39,319 nt of DNA from a virus, in the IMG/VR virus record IMGVR_UViG_3300032271_001160, positions 1 through 39,319 of that record; one strand, written 5' to 3'. Below are positions 1-39,319 of this stretch, piece after piece. Position numbers and translations under genes: made by a program. The notes below the pieces were generated by a model, which made no database searches, was not told the origin of the DNA, and worked only from the letters and a program-made list of their open reading frames with translations. Position 1 is the stretch's first letter. Every line of letters starts with the position of its first letter.

Positions 1-123
1 GCACCATACCGGAGGCTCAGACTGTGAGAACTCCCAGTGCTTGCCTGCTGGCCAACTCGGTGACGGTTCGCGTGGCCAGCTACACCAACAACCGAGGCGT
101 CAGAACACCCAACTACACAGACA
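1..123. repeat. Direct terminal repeat, left copy
   Basis: The first 123 bases recur exactly as the last 123 bases. The repeat begins within the end of the connector gene and runs into the head-closure gene, so joining the ends restores two intact overlapping genes. This is what a circular molecule, or a circularly permuted phage genome, gives after assembly. A short genuine terminal redundancy is possible but less likely because the repeat lies inside genes rather than at terminase. Confidence 0.95.
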
Positions 124-347
124 AGACCTACCCGGCGAGTGTCCAGCCTGGTGCGGGTGGCGACGGTGACGCACACCTGCAAGAGCTTGGCGACACAGCG
201 TATCGCGTCTACCTGCTCAGCGATCCAGGGGCCAAAGCGGGCGACCTGGTGACGTGGGGCTCACGGACACTCAGCGTGCTCGCCGTTGCCAACGATCGGG
301 CGGGCCGGGGCGTCTGCTACCGGCTTGATTGTCAAGAGGTGCGGTGA
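24..347 (+). CDS. Head-closure / head-tail adaptor protein
   Basis: A 107-residue protein that probably docks under the connector and closes the filled head before tail attachment (SPP1 gp16-like stopper role). The GTG start at 24 overlaps the TGA of the connector gene (GTGA) when the circle is closed, with a GGAGG ribosome site at 11-15. The protein is beta-rich, with the typical pattern of a short N-terminus, an exposed loop rich in Gly and Asp (about residues 43-50) and a C-terminal segment around TWGSRTLSVLAV. The call rests on position between the connector and the gp10-like genes plus length; sequence similarity alone is weak. Confidence 0.65.
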   Translation: MRTPSACLLANSVTVRVASYTNNRGVRTPNYTDKTYPASVQPGAGGDGDAHLQELGDTAYRVYLLSDPGAKAGDLVTWGSRTLSVLAVANDRAGRGVCYRLDCQEVR

Positions 348-781
348 TGCCGGGCGGCGGGAACGGTGCGTTTGAGTGGCACGGCGACGAGGCCATGCGG
401 CTGATCCAGACCGAGCTAGGCAAACGGTTGGCAGCAGCAGCAATCACAGTACAGAACCACGCGAAACAGTTGCTGAGTGTGGAAGGCACCGGGGTTCACA
501 AGGCCGAACACGAGCACCATGTTGCCGCACCCAAGCGACGAGTGGCCGCCAAGCATGCCAAGCGTGCAAAGAAAATCTCACGCACGGCTAAACGGCTCAG
601 CAAAAAAGCGGCTCGCGTCAGCCAGCGACTCAGTAAGGTAACGGCCAAGATCCGCAAACCAACCGTCAAACGCATCAAACGCATCAACAAAAGCGTTGGC
701 AAGATTAGCAAACGAGCGACCCGCAACATCGCCAAAAAACTGAAACGACCACGTTCGCGCCGTCGCCGTCGATCGACCTAA
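347..781 (+). CDS. gp10-like N-terminal half fused to histone-like basic tail
   Basis: 144 residues from the ATG at 347, which overlaps the preceding TGA (TGATG) and follows an AGAGGTG ribosome site. Residues up to about 50 (FEWHGDEAMRL ... AKQLLSVEGTG) look like the N-terminal half of HK97 gp10-type tail-joining proteins. The remaining ~90 residues are extremely rich in Lys and Arg, resembling histone H1-like or nucleoid-associated tails, and end in an arginine run before TAA at 779-781. The C-terminal half of the gp10 family appears in the next ORF in the same reading frame, with no other stop between. It may be a split gene, a readthrough protein or a new DNA-binding protein built on a gp10 fragment. 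Confidence 0.7.
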   Translation: MPGGGNGAFEWHGDEAMRLIQTELGKRLAAAAITVQNHAKQLLSVEGTGVHKAEHEHHVAAPKRRVAAKHAKRAKKISRTAKRLSKKAARVSQRLSKVTAKIRKPTVKRIKRINKSVGKISKRATRNIAKKLKRPRSRRRRRST

Positions 782-823
782 CACGCAGCGATCAGCGACC
801 CGCAACCCACAGGACTACCAACG

Positions 824-1168
824 TTGGCAGAACTACACTGGACGCAGATCCGCGCGTTGGTAAAGGCGGGCAAGATCATCCGCACGCCGTCAGGCTCACG
901 AGCCAAGCGAGTCTACGGCGCGTTCCCGAGCAAGCCCGGCCAACCACCTCACAAACAAGTTGGCGTACTGCGTGGCTCCGTGACGTACGAGGTCGCCTAC
1001 TCTGCCAACGGAACATTGATTGCCAGAGTGGGAACTAACATCCTGTATGGCAAATTTTTGGAGTTGGGCACTCGCAAGATGAAAGCCCGGCCCTGGCTCA
1101 AGCGAGCACTCAACGAAAAACGCGGCGACATCCAAGCCATCATGAATCGACCGATGAAAATTAAGTGA
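824..1168 (+). CDS. HK97 gp10-like tail-joining protein, C-terminal half
   Basis: 114 residues. The motif FPSKPGQPPHKQVGVLRGSVTYEV, quoted only as PSKPGQPPHKQ and LRGSV here, followed by VGTNILYGKFLELGTRKMKARP in shortened form (YGKFLELGTRKM), is the C-terminal signature of HK97 gp10-type proteins, which act at the head-tail joint. The family's usual N-terminal helix region is absent here and sits in the preceding ORF. The likely start is TTG at 824 behind AGGA at 811-814. The frame is the same as the upstream ORF and is separated only by TAA at 779-781, so independent re-initiation or stop readthrough are both possible. Confidence 0.75.
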   Translation: MAELHWTQIRALVKAGKIIRTPSGSRAKRVYGAFPSKPGQPPHKQVGVLRGSVTYEVAYSANGTLIARVGTNILYGKFLELGTRKMKARPWLKRALNEKRGDIQAIMNRPMKIK

Positions 1169-1202
1169 CACAACCAGCAACACAAACTGGAGACGCACAC
1201 GC

Positions 1203-1601
1203 ATGGCCCTGCTCAGTAATGCCGCTGGTGAAGGCCAGCTCCTCACCGACATCCTGACCAACGCCAGCACCTGGAAGCTCAGGCTGTACAGCAACAACTA
1301 CACGCCGACCAACGCCGACACCGTCAGCAGCTACACCGAGGCCACCTTCACCGGGTACTCGGCCATCACGCTCACCAGGTCTGTAAGTGGCTCGACGTGG
1401 ACGATCACCAGCAGCAGCTCCCCTGCGTCGGCCAGCTACCCAGCTCAGACCTTCTCGGCCACCAGTGCCCAGACAATCTACGGCTACTACATCACCGACT
1501 CAGGCGGGACCAAGGTGATCTGGGCTGAGAAGTTTGCCAGTGCCATCAGCCTTACTAACCCCAGCAGCTTGAACGTGACACCCGTCGTCACCCTTACCTG
1601 A
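1203..1601 (+). CDS. Phage structural protein of unknown role
   Basis: 132 residues, Ser/Thr/Tyr-rich and beta-like, with the pattern LLTDILTNASTWKLRLYSNN near the start and YPAQTFSATSAQTIYGYYIT later. I recall small proteins with this LRLYSNN...GYYVTDS pattern beside phage tail and fibre genes, but no function is assigned to them. ATG at 1203 follows GGAG at 1190. It opens an accessory block lying between the gp10-like genes and the tail-terminator-like gene, so it could be a decoration or fibre-associated protein. Confidence 0.6.
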   Translation: MALLSNAAGEGQLLTDILTNASTWKLRLYSNNYTPTNADTVSSYTEATFTGYSAITLTRSVSGSTWTITSSSSPASASYPAQTFSATSAQTIYGYYITDSGGTKVIWAEKFASAISLTNPSSLNVTPVVTLT

Positions 1602-1612
1602 TAGGACCACCC

Positions 1613-1807
1613 ATGGAAAATTCATTGATGCGGTTTTTTGAATACAAGCACTTACCACACCACCTGCAACTCGTATCGCAACTGGTTTATGAATTGGCCG
1701 AACAGATGGACAACTTGCCAGAATCGGCAGAAAAAACAGCAGGAATGCGCAAGTTGTTGGAAGCAAAGGACTGTTTTGTTCGTGCCTCATTACCTTTGCC
1801 CGAATAA
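1613..1807 (+). CDS. Acb2/Tad1-like small helical protein (candidate anti-defence)
   Basis: 64 residues. The layout FEYKHLPHHLQ, helix with YELAEQ, then LP, then AEKTAGMRKLLEAKD and a final VRASL resembles the compact two-helix hairpin family of Acb2/Tad1-type phage proteins, where Acb2 sequesters cyclic nucleotides from CBASS and Tad1 sequesters the Thoeris signal. Conservation of the EKTAxxRKLLEAKDxxVRA block is the main evidence, recalled from memory. ATG at 1613 follows AGGACC at 1604; an internal ATG at 1631 is also possible. It sits among structural genes, as such small passengers often do. The ligand, if any, is unknown. Confidence 0.5.
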   Translation: MENSLMRFFEYKHLPHHLQLVSQLVYELAEQMDNLPESAEKTAGMRKLLEAKDCFVRASLPLPE

Positions 1808-1843
1808 TATTGTCACCCTCACATGATTCAAGGGACCAGAACC

Positions 1844-2185
1844 ATGGCAGACGCCGCAACGCCGCAACTTGTGAACTGGGCTAACAGCCGAGTTCGTACT
1901 CTGGCCGACAAGATCAAAGACGTGGAATTGTCGATCGCGTCTTACCAGGCCGACTACACCGCTCAGGGCCTGGCCGCTGTCATCACGGCAGCAGGGCCAA
2001 CCAATAACATCGCCGATGGCTACACCACCGATGGGCGCCAGCCGATTACCGGGAATCAAATTCTGGGTTTTAACGCTTGCCTTACTCAAATCCAGACTGC
2101 GATCACAACGACCGTGGTTCCAGGCGTGGGAAGTCCTCCGTCTCCACTGGTTTCGGCAATCCAGGTTAACGGCTCCAAGAGGTGA
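1844..2185 (+). CDS. Conserved phage structural-region protein, unknown
   Basis: 113 residues from ATG 1844, eight bases after AGGGA; an upstream in-frame ATG at 1823 lacks a ribosome site. An N-terminal amphipathic helix (NWANSRVRTLADKIKDVELSI) is followed by a loop rich in Gly, Thr and Asp containing ADGYTTDGRQPITG, then a second helix. I recall similar proteins with an RVRPLAD-type start near tail genes in other phages but know no function. It belongs to the accessory block just before the tail-spike-like gene. Confidence 0.55.
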   Translation: MADAATPQLVNWANSRVRTLADKIKDVELSIASYQADYTAQGLAAVITAAGPTNNIADGYTTDGRQPITGNQILGFNACLTQIQTAITTTVVPGVGSPPSPLVSAIQVNGSKR

Positions 2186-2188
2186 TTC

Positions 2189-3592
2189 GTGGCCTACGTT
2201 GACTTTTACATGGACGCATCAACTGGAAACGACCTTAACAGCGGATCGTCGTCCGGTTCGCCTGTTATAGTTTCAGGATGCAGCGCAAACAATGTGGCGG
2301 TTTCCGGACCCACATACGTTTGCAGAATAACGGCTGGTTCAGGCACACCCTTCAGCGGTGTTACAGCTGGCCAATGGGCAAGCGTATACCTGTCGTCTGG
2401 CGGGTATACCGTAACAAGTTATATCAGCCAGATTTATCAAGTGAATGGTGGAGGTTCGTCCATTGACCTGTACTACGAGAGTTCTACTCCTCCGAATTGT
2501 TTTGGAAGTGGAGATTTGAGCGGTGCTGGAAATCCCGGATTTACTGGGGTGGCTGGTGCTGTTACTGCGCGAATCGGCGGTCCATGGGCATCTTTGAATA
2601 TTACCAGACTATCAGCCGCAGGATCATACGCAGGCGGAGCAGTAGGTGGAACTTATTATACGTCAGCATTCCTATTTTTGAATGTGCGGGTTAATGTAAA
2701 ATCGGGAACATATTCAAACAGTTCTCAGCTGACTTTACCTAGCGGCAGCAACATAAGGGGAATTGCGGGTGCATCCGTTCGCCCTATATGCTGGCGAGGA
2801 TACGCGACATCGCCTGGAGATTTGGACAATGCCGCCAACCCTGGCACGCATCCCGTATTTTCATTTAGCAGTACGGCGAATCTGATCATCCCAAGCTACA
2901 CACGATTAGAAAATATCGATATCACGACAACGGGAACCGCGAATCCTCTAATACCTGTGACTGAGTTAGGCGTAATGATGACTCGTTGTCGGGTCACGGC
3001 GACCAACTCGGCGATTACGATCTCTGGAACTGCTCCAGGCTTTAATGCGTGGGCGTGCTATTTTACTACTACGTCAACAACAGTTGCCTTAGTCAACTGT
3101 AACACCAATAACAATCAGCCGACATTTAATCAGTGCGTGTTTCAAGGTGGTCTATATAACGTAAATATGGCTTACAACGGCAGTTTCAATGAATGCCTGT
3201 TTAGAAACTCGTCTTCGCATCTGGTGTATTGCACTCAAATTGGAATGATATCTCAGTTCTACAGATGTACGTTCTATAACAGCGGAGCATCGTCTGATGC
3301 CATCCATTTGAGCGGAATAAATGCTCAGTATCTTACAGTGGCTTATTGTATTTTTGCCAATATTTCACGTTACGCAATAAACGTAACGGACACGGCTTTT
3401 GTGGGATGTCGGATCATAGGTCCAGACTACTACAGTATCACAAGCGGCCAGCTCAACGGGGTGTATGAGAGCTACCAGCACGCCGCGATCACCGAAAGCG
3501 CAAGCCCGTTCACCAGTGCCAGCACCAACGACTTCACACTGGTCAGCACTTCCACGGCCGTGACGCAAACCTTTGTTTTCGAGATGCCGTAA
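2189..3592 (+). CDS. Beta-helix tail spike / adhesin-like protein
   Basis: 467 residues starting at GTG 2189, three bases after the previous stop, with AAGAGGTG upstream. The N-terminus YVDFYMDASTGNDLNSGSSSGSP resembles (in the DASTGND-NSG pattern) the opening of parallel beta-helix proteins of the pectate-lyase/right-handed beta-helix type. Later residues show regularly spaced short strands with Asn, Cys and aromatic ladders (for example CRVTATNSAITISG, YNVNMAYNGSFNECLF), the usual beta-helix pattern. It probably binds or processes the host surface. The middle, about 2,250-3,420, is visibly more A+T-rich with A/T-ending codons than neighbours, which suggests recent acquisition. No catalytic residues could be assigned. 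Confidence 0.65.
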   Translation: MAYVDFYMDASTGNDLNSGSSSGSPVIVSGCSANNVAVSGPTYVCRITAGSGTPFSGVTAGQWASVYLSSGGYTVTSYISQIYQVNGGGSSIDLYYESSTPPNCFGSGDLSGAGNPGFTGVAGAVTARIGGPWASLNITRLSAAGSYAGGAVGGTYYTSAFLFLNVRVNVKSGTYSNSSQLTLPSGSNIRGIAGASVRPICWRGYATSPGDLDNAANPGTHPVFSFSSTANLIIPSYTRLENIDITTTGTANPLIPVTELGVMMTRCRVTATNSAITISGTAPGFNAWACYFTTTSTTVALVNCNTNNNQPTFNQCVFQGGLYNVNMAYNGSFNECLFRNSSSHLVYCTQIGMISQFYRCTFYNSGASSDAIHLSGINAQYLTVAYCIFANISRYAINVTDTAFVGCRIIGPDYYSITSGQLNGVYESYQHAAITESASPFTSASTNDFTLVSTSTAVTQTFVFEMP

Positions 3593-5098
3593 GTGGCAAC
3601 GCTCACCAGCTACCTTACACCGGGGCCATTTCAGCCGGGCAGCAGTACCGACCGCCGCACCACGTATCGCGCACCTGGGCCGCTCCAGCCTCAGCTCGTC
3701 ACCAGCGTCACCTACAACGTCACCGGCTCGGGTGGGCTTACCCTGGGAGGTACGGCGACAGCTAGCCTGGCGTACTCAGTCACCGGCTCTGGTGGCCTGA
3801 CACTGGGAGGCACCGCGACCAGCTCGGCCGCGTACAGCATCACCGGGTCGGGTGGCCTGGTACTGGGCGGGACGGTCTCAACCGCTCCAGCCTTCAGCGT
3901 GGTCGGCTCGGGTGGACTCACGCTTTCCGGCTCTGGCAGCATCTCGAGCGCGTACACGATCACCGCCAACGGTGGCTTAACGTTGGCTGGCACCGCGACC
4001 AGCTCGGCCAGCTACACGATCACTGCCAACGGTGGCTTGACGCTCGGCGGCTCGGCAACATCAAGACTGGCATTCAACGTGACCGCCTCCGGCGGGCTCA
4101 CGTTAGGTGGTTCGGCAACGAGCGTGCTGGCGTTTAGCGTGGTGGCCAGTGGTGGCCTGACGTTGGCAGGCTCGGCAACCGTCGCACTGGTCACCCCGGA
4201 AGACCTTTATGAATCGTTGGTGCTGACGTGTTACGGATCACCAACGCTCACCAGCCTGTTTGGCCGTATTGGCTGGTTGTGGATTGAGGAAGCCCCAGAC
4301 GGTGAGCAGTTTCCCTACGCGGTGCTTTCGCAACCTGACAGCGATCTATCGTTTGAAACTTTCAGCAACGATGGCACAGAACCAGCGATCGAATCGGCCA
4401 CGTACCAGATCAGCATTTTCAGCCAGGACCGCCAGTTAAACCGCACGATCTCGGCCGCGATCAACACGTTGCTAGACTCGGCCGCACTCAACCACAACGA
4501 CGGGTACCTGATGGGCCTGCGTATTGAGTCGCAAACCGATTTGCTTGACCCCGATCGCGGGCCGCAAGGTGTGGACGTGTGGCAGCGAGTGGTCAGGCTC
4601 GACGTACGCGACGGACACAACCAGACGGTGGTTACCGCGATTTACACGCCAACGCCAGCCGCAACCGACCTTGCCGACGCATTGATTGCCATGCTCGCCA
4701 GTGACAGCACGTTGGCAGGTTCGGACTATTTCGGCCGGTCAGATTGGCTCTGGATTCAGGAAGCACCAGACGGGCAAGCCCTACCCTATGCGGTGTTGAT
4801 GCAAAAGGAAAGCAAACGACACCAGGAAAGCAACGCCAACGACGGCACGCGGCCTGTAATCGAAGACTCAACCTACGAGCTCCACGTCTTTGCATCCTCT
4901 CGTGCGATCTGCCGGACGTTGGGCGAACGAATCGGCTCGTTGGTAGACGGGGCAGCGATCACGTTTGGTGACGGCTACCCGATGTATTTGAGACGACAGA
5001 GCGACACGGACACCCTCGACGACGACCGTTCCCGGCTCGGTGCCGACGTATGGCGCAGAGTCGTTACCCTCACGGCCATCACCGGCCACACGGAGTGA
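3593..5098 (+). CDS. Repeat protein with duplicated tail-terminator-like domain
   Basis: 501 residues starting at GTG 3593 directly after the preceding TAA. Residues 39-198 are eight tandem 20-residue units of the form SxGGLTLGGTAT. Residues ~203-343 and ~359-501 are two copies of one domain: each has an SDYFGR/TSLFGR-type start, WLWIxEAPDG, PYAV, NDGT, an Rx2-helix, DGY, and VWxRVV. This domain resembles DUF3168-type tail-completion (tail terminator) proteins, which cap the tail tube at the head-proximal end, and the gene lies one gene before the tube protein, as expected. Fusion of two copies and a glycine-rich repeat leader is unusual. Confidence 0.6.
   Translation: MATLTSYLTPGPFQPGSSTDRRTTYRAPGPLQPQLVTSVTYNVTGSGGLTLGGTATASLAYSVTGSGGLTLGGTATSSAAYSITGSGGLVLGGTVSTAPAFSVVGSGGLTLSGSGSISSAYTITANGGLTLAGTATSSASYTITANGGLTLGGSATSRLAFNVTASGGLTLGGSATSVLAFSVVASGGLTLAGSATVALVTPEDLYESLVLTCYGSPTLTSLFGRIGWLWIEEAPDGEQFPYAVLSQPDSDLSFETFSNDGTEPAIESATYQISIFSQDRQLNRTISAAINTLLDSAALNHNDGYLMGLRIESQTDLLDPDRGPQGVDVWQRVVRLDVRDGHNQTVVTAIYTPTPAATDLADALIAMLASDSTLAGSDYFGRSDWLWIQEAPDGQALPYAVLMQKESKRHQESNANDGTRPVIEDSTYELHVFASSRAICRTLGERIGSLVDGAAITFGDGYPMYLRRQSDTDTLDDDRSRLGADVWRRVVTLTAITGHTE
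3707..4186 (+). repeat. Eight tandem 60-bp repeats inside a tail gene
   Basis: Eight in-frame units of 60 bp, each encoding about 20 residues with the core GGLTL. Copies differ at third positions and at several residues, so they are old or under selection rather than freshly expanded. They could change number by recombination and so change the length of a surface-exposed rod. Confidence 0.85.
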
Positions 5099-28160: not shown

Positions 28161-28670
28161 ATGCTCACCGCTTTTTGTTTGGGTTTTGTTTTGCAGACTC
28201 AGACGCCAACCACAACTGCCACACCGCCCGCCCCTATCGTGATCGCCTCCGGCCCTGCTCGGCCGGTTGTGGTCGTGCTAGATGGTCAGGCTGTGACGTT
28301 GCTCACGACCCCGTTGGCAGGGTTAAGCCCAACGCCCCCAACGCCCCCAGCGCCGCCCGCGCCTGATCCAGTACCAACGCCAGTACAGGGTAAGCTCTGG
28401 GTTTCGCTGATCGTCCAAGCCAACGACGCAACGCAAGCCAACCTCCGCACGCACGACCAGGTGCGAGGGCTGGCCAAGCCCGGTGAGATCGAGCTACGCA
28501 CGTACACGCATGACGACCCAGCGCTACTCGGTGTGAAACTCGATCCGTACATCAGCAAATACGGGCTGCCGTTGCTGATCATTCAGGATCAAGCTGGCAA
28601 GGTTCTCGAAGCTGGCAAGGTGGCTGACGTTGCCGCTGTTACGGTCGCTGTGCGGAGGTACAAGCCGTGA
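28161..28670 (+). CDS. Exported thioredoxin-fold-like protein (tentative)
   Basis: 169 residues. The start MLTAFCLGFVLQ could be a short signal or lipoprotein-like segment with Cys 6. A Pro/Thr-rich linker (about 50-75) leads to a C-terminal domain with LWVSLIVQ, an ALLGVKLDPYISKYGLPLLIIQDQ helix-strand pair (quoted in part: KYGLPLLIIQDQAGK), which looks like a thioredoxin fold without a CxxC motif. I recall similar proteins beside papain-like peptidases in planctomycete phages, so a shared lysis or envelope role is inferred only from position. Confidence 0.45.
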   Translation: MLTAFCLGFVLQTQTPTTTATPPAPIVIASGPARPVVVVLDGQAVTLLTTPLAGLSPTPPTPPAPPAPDPVPTPVQGKLWVSLIVQANDATQANLRTHDQVRGLAKPGEIELRTYTHDDPALLGVKLDPYISKYGLPLLIIQDQAGKVLEAGKVADVAAVTVAVRRYKP

Positions 28671-29476
28671 GCATTGGCACACTGGACCACCTCCCACAAA
28701 TCGAAATCAACGGCATCCCGCGAGTTCTCGGCTGGGTGCCACCGACCGACGCACAGCCAACGTTGATGAGCGCCCTGCCGCAACTACCCCAGGATGCGTG
28801 GCAGGAGTTCGAGTTCTCAGGCGTACCAACGGTGGTCAAAGACCAGGGCAGCTACGGTGCCTGCAACGGCCACGCAGCCGCGTCTACGTTGGAGCTCTGC
28901 CGCTGGATCGGGATTGGCACTGCAAGCGCAATCGAGCTGAGCGCCTGGTTTGTGTACGCGAAACTGTGCGGCGGTTGGGACCGTGGCTCCAACATTGGCG
29001 ACGCCCTGGTGCTCATGCAGGGCACTGGAACGTGCCTCGACACCTACGTGCCACACGGCACGATCAACCCCAATCGACTCAGCACGCAAGCCAAAGCCGA
29101 CGCCCAGAATCACAAGATCGCTCTCGGTGGCAAGCTCGAAAGCTGGGACGATATCTGTAACGCTGTGCAACTGCGCAGACCTTGCAATATCAGCGTAACG
29201 GCCGGTCGCAACTGGTCCGACGTGGACGCCAACGGGGTACCGCCGGTGAACCCTGGTCTGGGAAATCACGCTGTTGCTGTTGGCTGGGGCATGAGGCGAA
29301 CCGCCAACGGTGACTGGCAAATTAAAATGCAAAATTCATGGTCAACCAAGTGGGGTGTGGGCGGGTACTGCTGGCTCACGCGGGCTCACTGGGAAACGCA
29401 AAACGGCCGGGAAGCGTACTTTGTTGAGGCCAGCACAGTACAGCCAGGCACAGAGCCGCCGGTGGTATTGATATGA
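28667..29476 (+). CDS. Papain-like cysteine peptidase (C1 family), putative lysin
   Basis: 269 residues, GTG 28667 overlapping the previous stop. The catalytic set is clear: Q60 in KDQG, C66 in GACNGHA (papain QGxCGSCWAF), H201 in GNHAVAVGWG, and N223 in QNSWSTKWG. No signal peptide is evident. Papain-like peptidases cut proteins, not peptidoglycan, so as a lysis enzyme it would act on a proteinaceous envelope, consistent with a planctomycete-type host. It could also be a virion or entry peptidase. It is flanked by membrane proteins, which supports the lysis role. Confidence 0.85.
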   Translation: MSIGTLDHLPQIEINGIPRVLGWVPPTDAQPTLMSALPQLPQDAWQEFEFSGVPTVVKDQGSYGACNGHAAASTLELCRWIGIGTASAIELSAWFVYAKLCGGWDRGSNIGDALVLMQGTGTCLDTYVPHGTINPNRLSTQAKADAQNHKIALGGKLESWDDICNAVQLRRPCNISVTAGRNWSDVDANGVPPVNPGLGNHAVAVGWGMRRTANGDWQIKMQNSWSTKWGVGGYCWLTRAHWETQNGREAYFVEASTVQPGTEPPVVLI

Positions 29477-38269: not shown

Positions 38270-39223
38270 ATGGCCGATCTGATTGACCAGACGACACTAG
38301 CAAACCTGCTCTCTGCCGGAGGTTTTACCCTCACGTCAGCACAGAGTACGGTGCTGCCGCTGGTCACGTCGGCAGCCTCGCGGGCGATCCGTCGTTGGTG
38401 TTCGCGGCAGTTTAGCTACGCAACGTATGACGAACTCTATACGGTCGAGCTTGACGGTCAAATTCTGCTGCGTGAATTCCCGGTAGACTCGATTTCACGA
38501 GTGGCATCGGCACCCGCTACGGTGCTGACGGTGCAGAACACAAACAGCACCACCAACCAACGGGCTCAAGTGGCACTCGCCACGACCGGCGATGTGGACC
38601 TTGGGTTGACGGTTACCGGCCTCAACCTTCAACGAGTCGCCAGCGGAACGACCACAACCAACACGCTGACGTTTTCAGCAGGCCAGACGGTGGCCGCACT
38701 GGCAACAGCGATCAACGCCGTTGGTAACGGCTGGTCAGCGTCGGCAGATGCAACGTACGCACTCTGGCCAGTGGCAGACCTGCGAGCGGTGCAAGGCTAT
38801 ATGCCAGCCCTCACCAGCAGCATGGCCGAACTCAAGATTCACACAACCGACCTTCCGTTTGAATTAGATGAGCGGGCGGGTGTTCTGACCCTCCAGCAAT
38901 ACAACGCACTCCAGACCAACCCCTGGCGGTCTACCCGGTGGGGACCACCGCTCACAAGCGACTACGGCGACCAGACGTTACGCGGCCAACTGCAAGGGGT
39001 GCGAGTGGTGTACCAGGCTGGATTGCAGACACTGCCCGAGGACATCCAGCAGGCGGCAGCGTTGACCGTGCAAGACATGCTCCGCCAACTGGCACTCGAC
39101 CCACGATTGAGCAGCGAGAGCATCGGTGACTATAGCTACGTGGTGAACACCGCGTTTCAGACGTTCGCGTTCTCCAAGGTAGTTATGGGTCTGCTGGCAC
39201 CATACCGGAGGCTCAGACTGTGA
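38270..39223 (+). CDS. Head-tail connector protein (HK97 gp6-like)
   Basis: 317 residues from ATG 38270. The N-terminal ADLIDQTTLANLLSAGGFTL and a helix with AASRAIRRWCSRQF (in parts) fit connector proteins that bind under the portal; a middle beta domain is an insertion, so it is long for this family. ITRVASAPATVLTV and QGVRVVYQAGLQTLPEDIQQAAALTVQDMLRQLA (in parts) match the later gp6-like segment. It continues across the circular junction into the head-closure gene. Confidence 0.72.
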   Translation: MADLIDQTTLANLLSAGGFTLTSAQSTVLPLVTSAASRAIRRWCSRQFSYATYDELYTVELDGQILLREFPVDSISRVASAPATVLTVQNTNSTTNQRAQVALATTGDVDLGLTVTGLNLQRVASGTTTTNTLTFSAGQTVAALATAINAVGNGWSASADATYALWPVADLRAVQGYMPALTSSMAELKIHTTDLPFELDERAGVLTLQQYNALQTNPWRSTRWGPPLTSDYGDQTLRGQLQGVRVVYQAGLQTLPEDIQQAAALTVQDMLRQLALDPRLSSESIGDYSYVVNTAFQTFAFSKVVMGLLAPYRRLRL

Positions 39224-39319
39224 GAACTCCCAGTGCTTGCCTGCTGGCCAACTCGGTGACGGTTCGCGTGGCCAGCTACACCAACAACCGAGGCGTCAGA
39301 ACACCCAACTACACAGACA
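39197..39319. repeat. Direct terminal repeat, right copy
   Basis: Exact copy of bases 1-123. It contains the last 27 bases of the connector gene and the first 100 bases of the head-closure gene. Collapsing it gives a circular genome of 39,196 bp. Confidence 0.95.
39220..39319 (+). CDS. Partial copy of the head-closure gene
   Basis: The first 100 bases of the gene at 24, present again because the window ends overlap. It is not a separate gene. Confidence 0.95.
   Translation, partial: MRTPSACLLANSVTVRVASYTNNRGVRTPNYTD

Follow-up and report, generated by a model that had tools for sequence, protein, structure and literature searches.

Neck gene locus of the window

The stretch of DNA analyzed here, referred to as the window, is 39,319 nucleotides long. 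Because its ends share an exact 123-bp repeat (positions 1 to 123 and 39197 to 39319), it represents a complete circular (or circularly permuted) phage genome of 39,196 bp. It encodes terminase, portal, and HK97-type capsid genes, as well as a phage integrase. The neck gene cluster spans the join of the circular genome, and the gene order across this join is capsid, adaptor, a head-completion-like ORF, ORF1, and ORF2 (Table 1). The stop codon of the head-completion-like ORF overlaps the ATG of ORF1 in a TGATG at positions 345 to 349. Together, ORF1 and ORF2 occupy the place between the head-completion gene, which was assigned by a weak match, and a tail-terminator gene, and the same order is found in L004 and L006. 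The nearest relatives of the window by major capsid protein, L007 and L008 (54%), both end before the gene considered here.

ORF1 and ORF2 lie in one frame, and the TAA between them is the sole stop between positions 347 and 1165, as an earlier note on this DNA had described. The TAA is followed by 42 nt and then by about 34 residues at the ORF2 N terminus that precede the conserved core. Only two common start codons, TTG at 824 and TTG at 857, are in frame with ORF2, and there is no ATG or GTG before the conserved core.

Table 1. Features of the neck gene region, with positions given in the window
Feature	Position	Strand	Basis
Head-completion-like protein, upstream neighbor	24..347	+	Weak PF05521 0.062 / phrog_939 0.061; order as in L004/L006
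ORF1: TCP N-terminal helix and 95-residue basic tail, 144 aa, ATG	347..781	+	Homology to L010; helix model; tail charge
TCP N-terminal helix segment (FEWHGDEAMRLIQ...AKQLLSVEGTG)	371..493	+	Homology; aligns to 9mu2_P helix within 106/109-residue match
Lys/Arg-rich amphipathic tail, predicted long helix	494..778	+	39 K/R, 2 D/E in 95 residues
TAA stop separating the halves, in frame with ORF2	779..781	+	
AGGA, 9 nt upstream of TTG 824, possible ribosome-binding site	811..814	+	Sequence only
ORF2: TCP C-terminal core, own TTG start, 114 aa	824..1168	+	phrog_5 2.5e-13; 54 to 58% identity to unsplit relatives
YGKFLELGTR motif in ORF2	1046..1075	+	HMM alignment to 9mu2_P and contacts in PMC11661146
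Tail-terminator-type protein, downstream neck gene	3593..5098	+	PF11367 3.1e-18, two stretches

Several other features of the surrounding genes were observed. Extra ORFs, one of which encodes a 467-aa protein that matches no Pfam family, lie at 1203 to 3592, between ORF2 and the tail-terminator gene, and there are no such ORFs at this place in the compared phages L003, L004, and L006. The tail-terminator-type protein has 501 aa and carries two tandem PF11367 stretches after an N-terminal repeat array of the GSGGLTLGGTATxSxAYxV type. The adaptor-like (gp6-type) protein (38270 to 39223, 317 aa) contains an apparent insertion matching the Flagellin_IN motif (PF07196, 1.4e-5), and its homolog in L008 has a stretch similar to this insertion. 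A papain-family cysteine peptidase (PF00112, 1.1e-7) is encoded at 28667 to 29476, just upstream of the packaging genes.

Homology of both ORFs to the tail completion protein

Tail completion proteins (TCPs), also termed Ne1, include HK97 gp10, lambda gpZ, and SPP1 gp16.1. Residues 9 to 47 of ORF1 share 54% identity with residues 5 to 43 of the single-gene relative L010 (E value of 5e-12 in a small database), and residues 37 to 114 of ORF2 share 54 to 58% identity with the C-terminal parts of L009, L010, and L013 (E values of 1e-24 to 2e-25). In addition, ORF2 matches phrog_5, annotated as "tail completion or Neck1 protein," and the cores of four other split loci, described below, match the same family at 2e-10 to 3e-15. 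In the Pfam profile search, window ORF2 gave no match to PF04883, whose cut-off is 21.4 bits; L009 (24.2) and L143 (24.9) score above this value, and L089 (21.3) and L018 (20.0) score slightly below it. The relatives in viral contigs include single ORFs of 135 to 147 residues. The earlier note had proposed the gp10-family match and had taken ORF1 as the N-terminal and ORF2 as the C-terminal part of the protein, and both claims are borne out by the homology to unsplit relatives and to phrog_5. The comparison with related phages, which that note had proposed, was run and revealed not two normal genes but one uninterrupted gene in L009, L010, L013, L084, and L092. The known TCP/Ne1 proteins are single polypeptides, each from one gene, whereas in the window, a stop and a new start divide the gene.

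Used as a query in searches of phages and viral contigs, ORF1 gave no match, probably because its tail dominates the query. A tandem duplication of gp10 was considered and rejected, as the first 36 residues of ORF2 do not match the N-terminal helix significantly and its N terminus differs in all five split loci. A family profile search of the window, L018, L140, and L143 records returned exactly two matches in each, corresponding to the two halves. Since the window genome is complete, it holds no recognizable intact TCP elsewhere, and the L018, L140, and L143 records may be fragments.

To obtain a fused model, the TAA was read as Q, and the product was aligned with 36 homologs and modeled with AlphaFold. 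The N-terminal helix and the core were predicted with pLDDT values of >90, with helix residues 13 to 42 at 93 to 98. In VIA-align, model residues 8 to 271 matched PDB 9mu2 chain P with a Z score of 9.7 and an rmsd of 3.4 over 106 of 109 residues, and the next structural match had a Z score of 5.5. A fused model of L089, treated in the same way, matched 9mu2 chain P with a Z score of 10.5, again over 106 of 109 residues. This chain is the TCP gp51 of SaPI1/80alpha (PMC11661146), and its sequence also matches the family profile (E value of 1.4e-5). In the fused models, where one chain stands in for a complex of two and packing is guided by the unsplit homologs of the alignment, both the ORF1 helix and the ORF2 core are needed to fill the known TCP fold, consisting of a long N-terminal helix, a beta-hairpin loop, and a C-terminal helix. 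Judged by its sequence and predicted fold, the window gene belongs to the TCP/Ne1 family despite the split.

In the 80alpha neck, a TCP monomer in the lumen caps the end of the packaged DNA; its Y78 and F81 stack against the final base pair, the terminal phosphates are held by R87 and N55, and its DNA-facing surface is positive (PMC11661146). It is the only TCP structure found with located DNA, and the N-terminal helix is an integral part of it (PMC11661146). In the HMM profile alignment, ORF2 residues Y75, F78, and R84 align with Y78, F81, and R87 of the 80alpha TCP, and the break in the window falls just before the position of TG-N55. L089 and L140 are without the F and R equivalents of this DNA-contact motif. 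The 80alpha TCP is a single 115-residue chain without a linker insert, whereas the window gene would yield two chains with a 95-residue basic tail at the break.

Recurrence of the split and of the basic tail

Among 203 distinct TCP cores, five (those of the window, L018, L089, L140, and L143) are split, and their upstream ORFs encode a recognizable N-terminal helix followed by a basic tail. In another 103, helix and core share one ORF; one core, that of L269, shows a plain frame slip, and the remainder are truncated by contig ends or too diverged to be classified. L269 (about 1935 to 2065) looked split but was rejected, since its N-terminal helix is encoded in a different frame and is not followed by a basic tail, which points to a plain frame slip or a sequencing error. 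L089 comes from a Planctomycetales metagenome-assembled genome and was the sole split prophage from searches of Planctomycetota genomes; it is also the only split locus whose record links it to Planctomycetota. Metagenome contigs do contain fragmented genes and frame errors, and L269 looks like such a case. However, the break is at the same place in all five split loci, and on these contigs, which come from different samples, it is accompanied each time by the same kind of basic tail and by a start codon immediately following the stop; in addition, an intact copy is absent from the four viral records searched, and conserved residues are retained in both halves. A decayed gene or an assembly error is therefore a very remote explanation.

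In the window, ORF2 follows in the same frame after 42 nt with a TTG start (net tail charge of +37), and in L089, where ORF1 ends in TGA, it follows in the same frame after 3 nt with a GTG start (+17). It lies in another frame in L018, where stop and start overlap in a TAATG (+28), in L140 (4 nt, GTG, +30), and in L143 (5 nt, TTG, +12). The earlier note had left two options at the stop, namely, release of the basic domain as part of a separate protein or readthrough into one fusion. Readthrough of the TAA in the window and the TGA in L089 would yield, in addition to the short product, a single fused TCP containing a long basic loop, and it is consistent with the shared frame of these two loci and with the frame-preserving difference of L089 from an unsplit relative (see below). 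However, readthrough is not a general mechanism because the ORF2 frame differs in three of the five loci; L143 is also without an overlap for frameshifting, in all five loci, ORF2 has a separate start codon no more than 42 nt from the ORF1 stop, and unsplit linkers do not exceed 55 aa. Release as two proteins is thus the favored option, and readthrough appears improbable.

The basic stretch of the window has a net charge of +37. It provides the most basic 90-residue stretch of any open frame in the window (+37); the next one, in frames overlapping other genes, reaches +24, and none of the 95-residue stretches in a pool of 17 other predicted phage proteins exceeds +13. The tail is strongly amphipathic, with a mean helical hydrophobic moment of 0.56, which is above that of all 500 shuffles, and AlphaFold predicts ORF1 residues 63 to 132 as one helix. 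Unsplit linkers at the same point have a median length of 13 residues, a maximum of 55, and a net charge of at most +7 (n = 71), and the five split tails (64 to 99 residues, +12 to +37) overlap with them in neither length nor charge. In relatives such as L009 and L010, a linker of about 13 residues is present where the window has the 95-residue tail, the stop, and the new start. The tail sequences diverge widely among the split loci, and that of L143 is the least basic and is not amphipathic.

The earlier note had called this added segment histone-like. The Lys/Arg-rich composition stands, and the Pfam and PHROG matches of ORF1 include no histone family. The tail has the Lys/Arg/Ala/Ser-rich composition of linker histone H1 and bacterial H1-like proteins, but, in contrast to them, it gives no family match and is attached to a neck-protein helix; shared Lys-rich composition does not show kinship with H1. 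A match to phrog_2990 (0.00018, unknown function) and weak Pfam matches to RdRP, apolipoprotein, and RmuC fall in the low-complexity helix and were dismissed as chance. The main claim of that note, namely, that a gp10-family gene has been divided and has gained a basic segment at the point of division, survived every test made.

Four unsplit TCPs, L045, L017, L019, and L031, have longer linkers. In these, the same site is enlarged and mildly basic within one ORF, but unlike in the window, the chain is unbroken, and no linker measured was longer than 55 residues or more charged than +7. L031 (2797 to 3402) and L045 (2719 to 3312), with long, partly basic linkers, are possible intermediates toward the split form. 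Two predicted viral proteins in BFVD, A0A6J7WFY8 (181 aa, named HK97 gp10 family) and A0A6J5SYI9 (202 aa), align over nearly the whole fused model, including the insert, and are possibly unsplit forms with a helical insert.

A comparison of L089 with the unsplit L009 at the DNA level, which rests on BLAST pieces, shows 82% identity on both flanks, with 321 nt in L089 and 48 nt in L009 between them, a net difference of 273 nt that preserves the frame. In L089 (0.96) and L140 (0.90), the tails have the same third-position GC content as the coding parts next to them, indicating that the inserts are coding sequence. An insertion of 270 to 400 nt at a single site of a conserved gene could also be a self-splicing intron or another element whose removal restores the gene. 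This explanation is scarcely credible, as no Rfam match was found in window positions 1 to 3000 (up to an E value of 1) or in L018 and L089 (up to 0.5), the inserts have the appearance of coding sequence and vary in both length and sequence, and their edges show no repeat of note.

In a tree built from the helix and core with the insert left out, many inner branches of which are weak, five changes of state between split and unsplit are needed, and a constraint of the five split loci to one clade was rejected (p-AU of 4e-5). Repeated fission and repeated refusion both fit this tree, and recombination could mimic either. Repeated fission outside one clade suggests selection rather than decay. 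No report of a split TCP was found in the open-access literature, and the repeated split of the TCP with a basic tail seems to be an undescribed arrangement.

A proposed two-chain plug and its relation to known TCPs

We consider it somewhat more likely than not that the window encodes a TCP of two separately translated chains, in which the opened loop forms a basic tail that is free and reaches the end of the DNA. ORF1 and ORF2 would be translated separately from one mRNA, with ORF1 supplying the long N-terminal helix and ORF2 supplying the core, and the two chains would come together again in the neck lumen to form the usual TCP fold. The chain would be open at the usual short linker, next to the DNA-capping residues, from which ORF1 would continue as a free basic amphipathic helix of about 95 residues. 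Within the narrow adaptor/portal channel, such a tail could lie along the DNA and keep its end held or positioned until the genome is ejected. A closed loop of 90 to 130 residues would hardly fit this channel, while a free tail could, which may explain the upper limit of 55 residues among the unsplit linkers measured. We infer the coassembly of the two chains and their position in the virion. Binding of the DNA end by the tail is likewise proposed; the insertion site lies next to the positions through which the 80alpha TCP contacts the end of the DNA (PMC11661146).

Alternatively, ORF2 alone may be the working TCP, and ORF1 may be a separate DNA-binding or ejected protein acting in DNA compaction or host takeover, with its helix as a docking signal. 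ORF1 consists mostly of the basic tail, the tails diverge as expected of an unconstrained DNA binder, and the DNA-contact motif is carried by ORF2. However, the N-terminal helix is recognizable in all five split loci (HMM E values of 1e-16 to 3e-21), and it is integral to the only solved TCP found (PMC11661146) and absent from ORF2, which makes this alternative unlikely. A two-chain TCP could also use its tail to bind protein instead of DNA, such as the lining of the neck and tail tube or the tape measure protein. In 80alpha, this lining is negative and the tape measure protein is positive (PMC11661146), and by analogy, the basic tail might bind protein. The location of the insertion point beside the DNA-contact residues argues against this, and we regard protein binding as quite unlikely. 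The location of TCP-family proteins may itself vary, given that T5 p143, which is assigned to the TCP family, lies at the tail tip (PMC11784142).

More broadly, tailed phages may have repeatedly opened the TCP at its DNA-facing apex, turning a loop into a free basic helix and the protein into a two-chain plug, with a tail that follows the end of the packaged genome or clamps it. Such an undescribed DNA-end-holding device of several origins is put forward tentatively, at slightly less than an even chance. TCPs are widespread in long-tailed phages and are needed for infectivity (PMC11099176), and their role was poorly understood before one was found to cap packaged DNA (PMC11661146). A natural break beside the DNA contact, joined to a large positive tail, gives a direct handle on this role, and repeated fission would show that the neck plug can work as two chains. 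There is also a warning for annotation: ORF2-type cores resemble short complete proteins, and ORF1-type proteins receive no annotation. A survey of phage necks reports Ne1 sizes of 56 to 231 residues (PMC4362835), and we would guess that some of its short members are unrecognized cores of split genes.

The known members of the HK97 gp10 (PF04883)/phrog_5 family are single genes, whereas the window has two ORFs. Among described TCPs, lambda gpZ carries an extra domain at the apex (PMC11661146), in the same region as the window insert. It is needed for the correct placement of DNA at the head-tail junction, and lambda particles without it look normal but are mostly noninfectious, which has been attributed to misplaced DNA (PMC11099176). 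In gpZ, the added part folds as a beta domain and the chain is continuous, whereas a basic helix is predicted at the break in the window.
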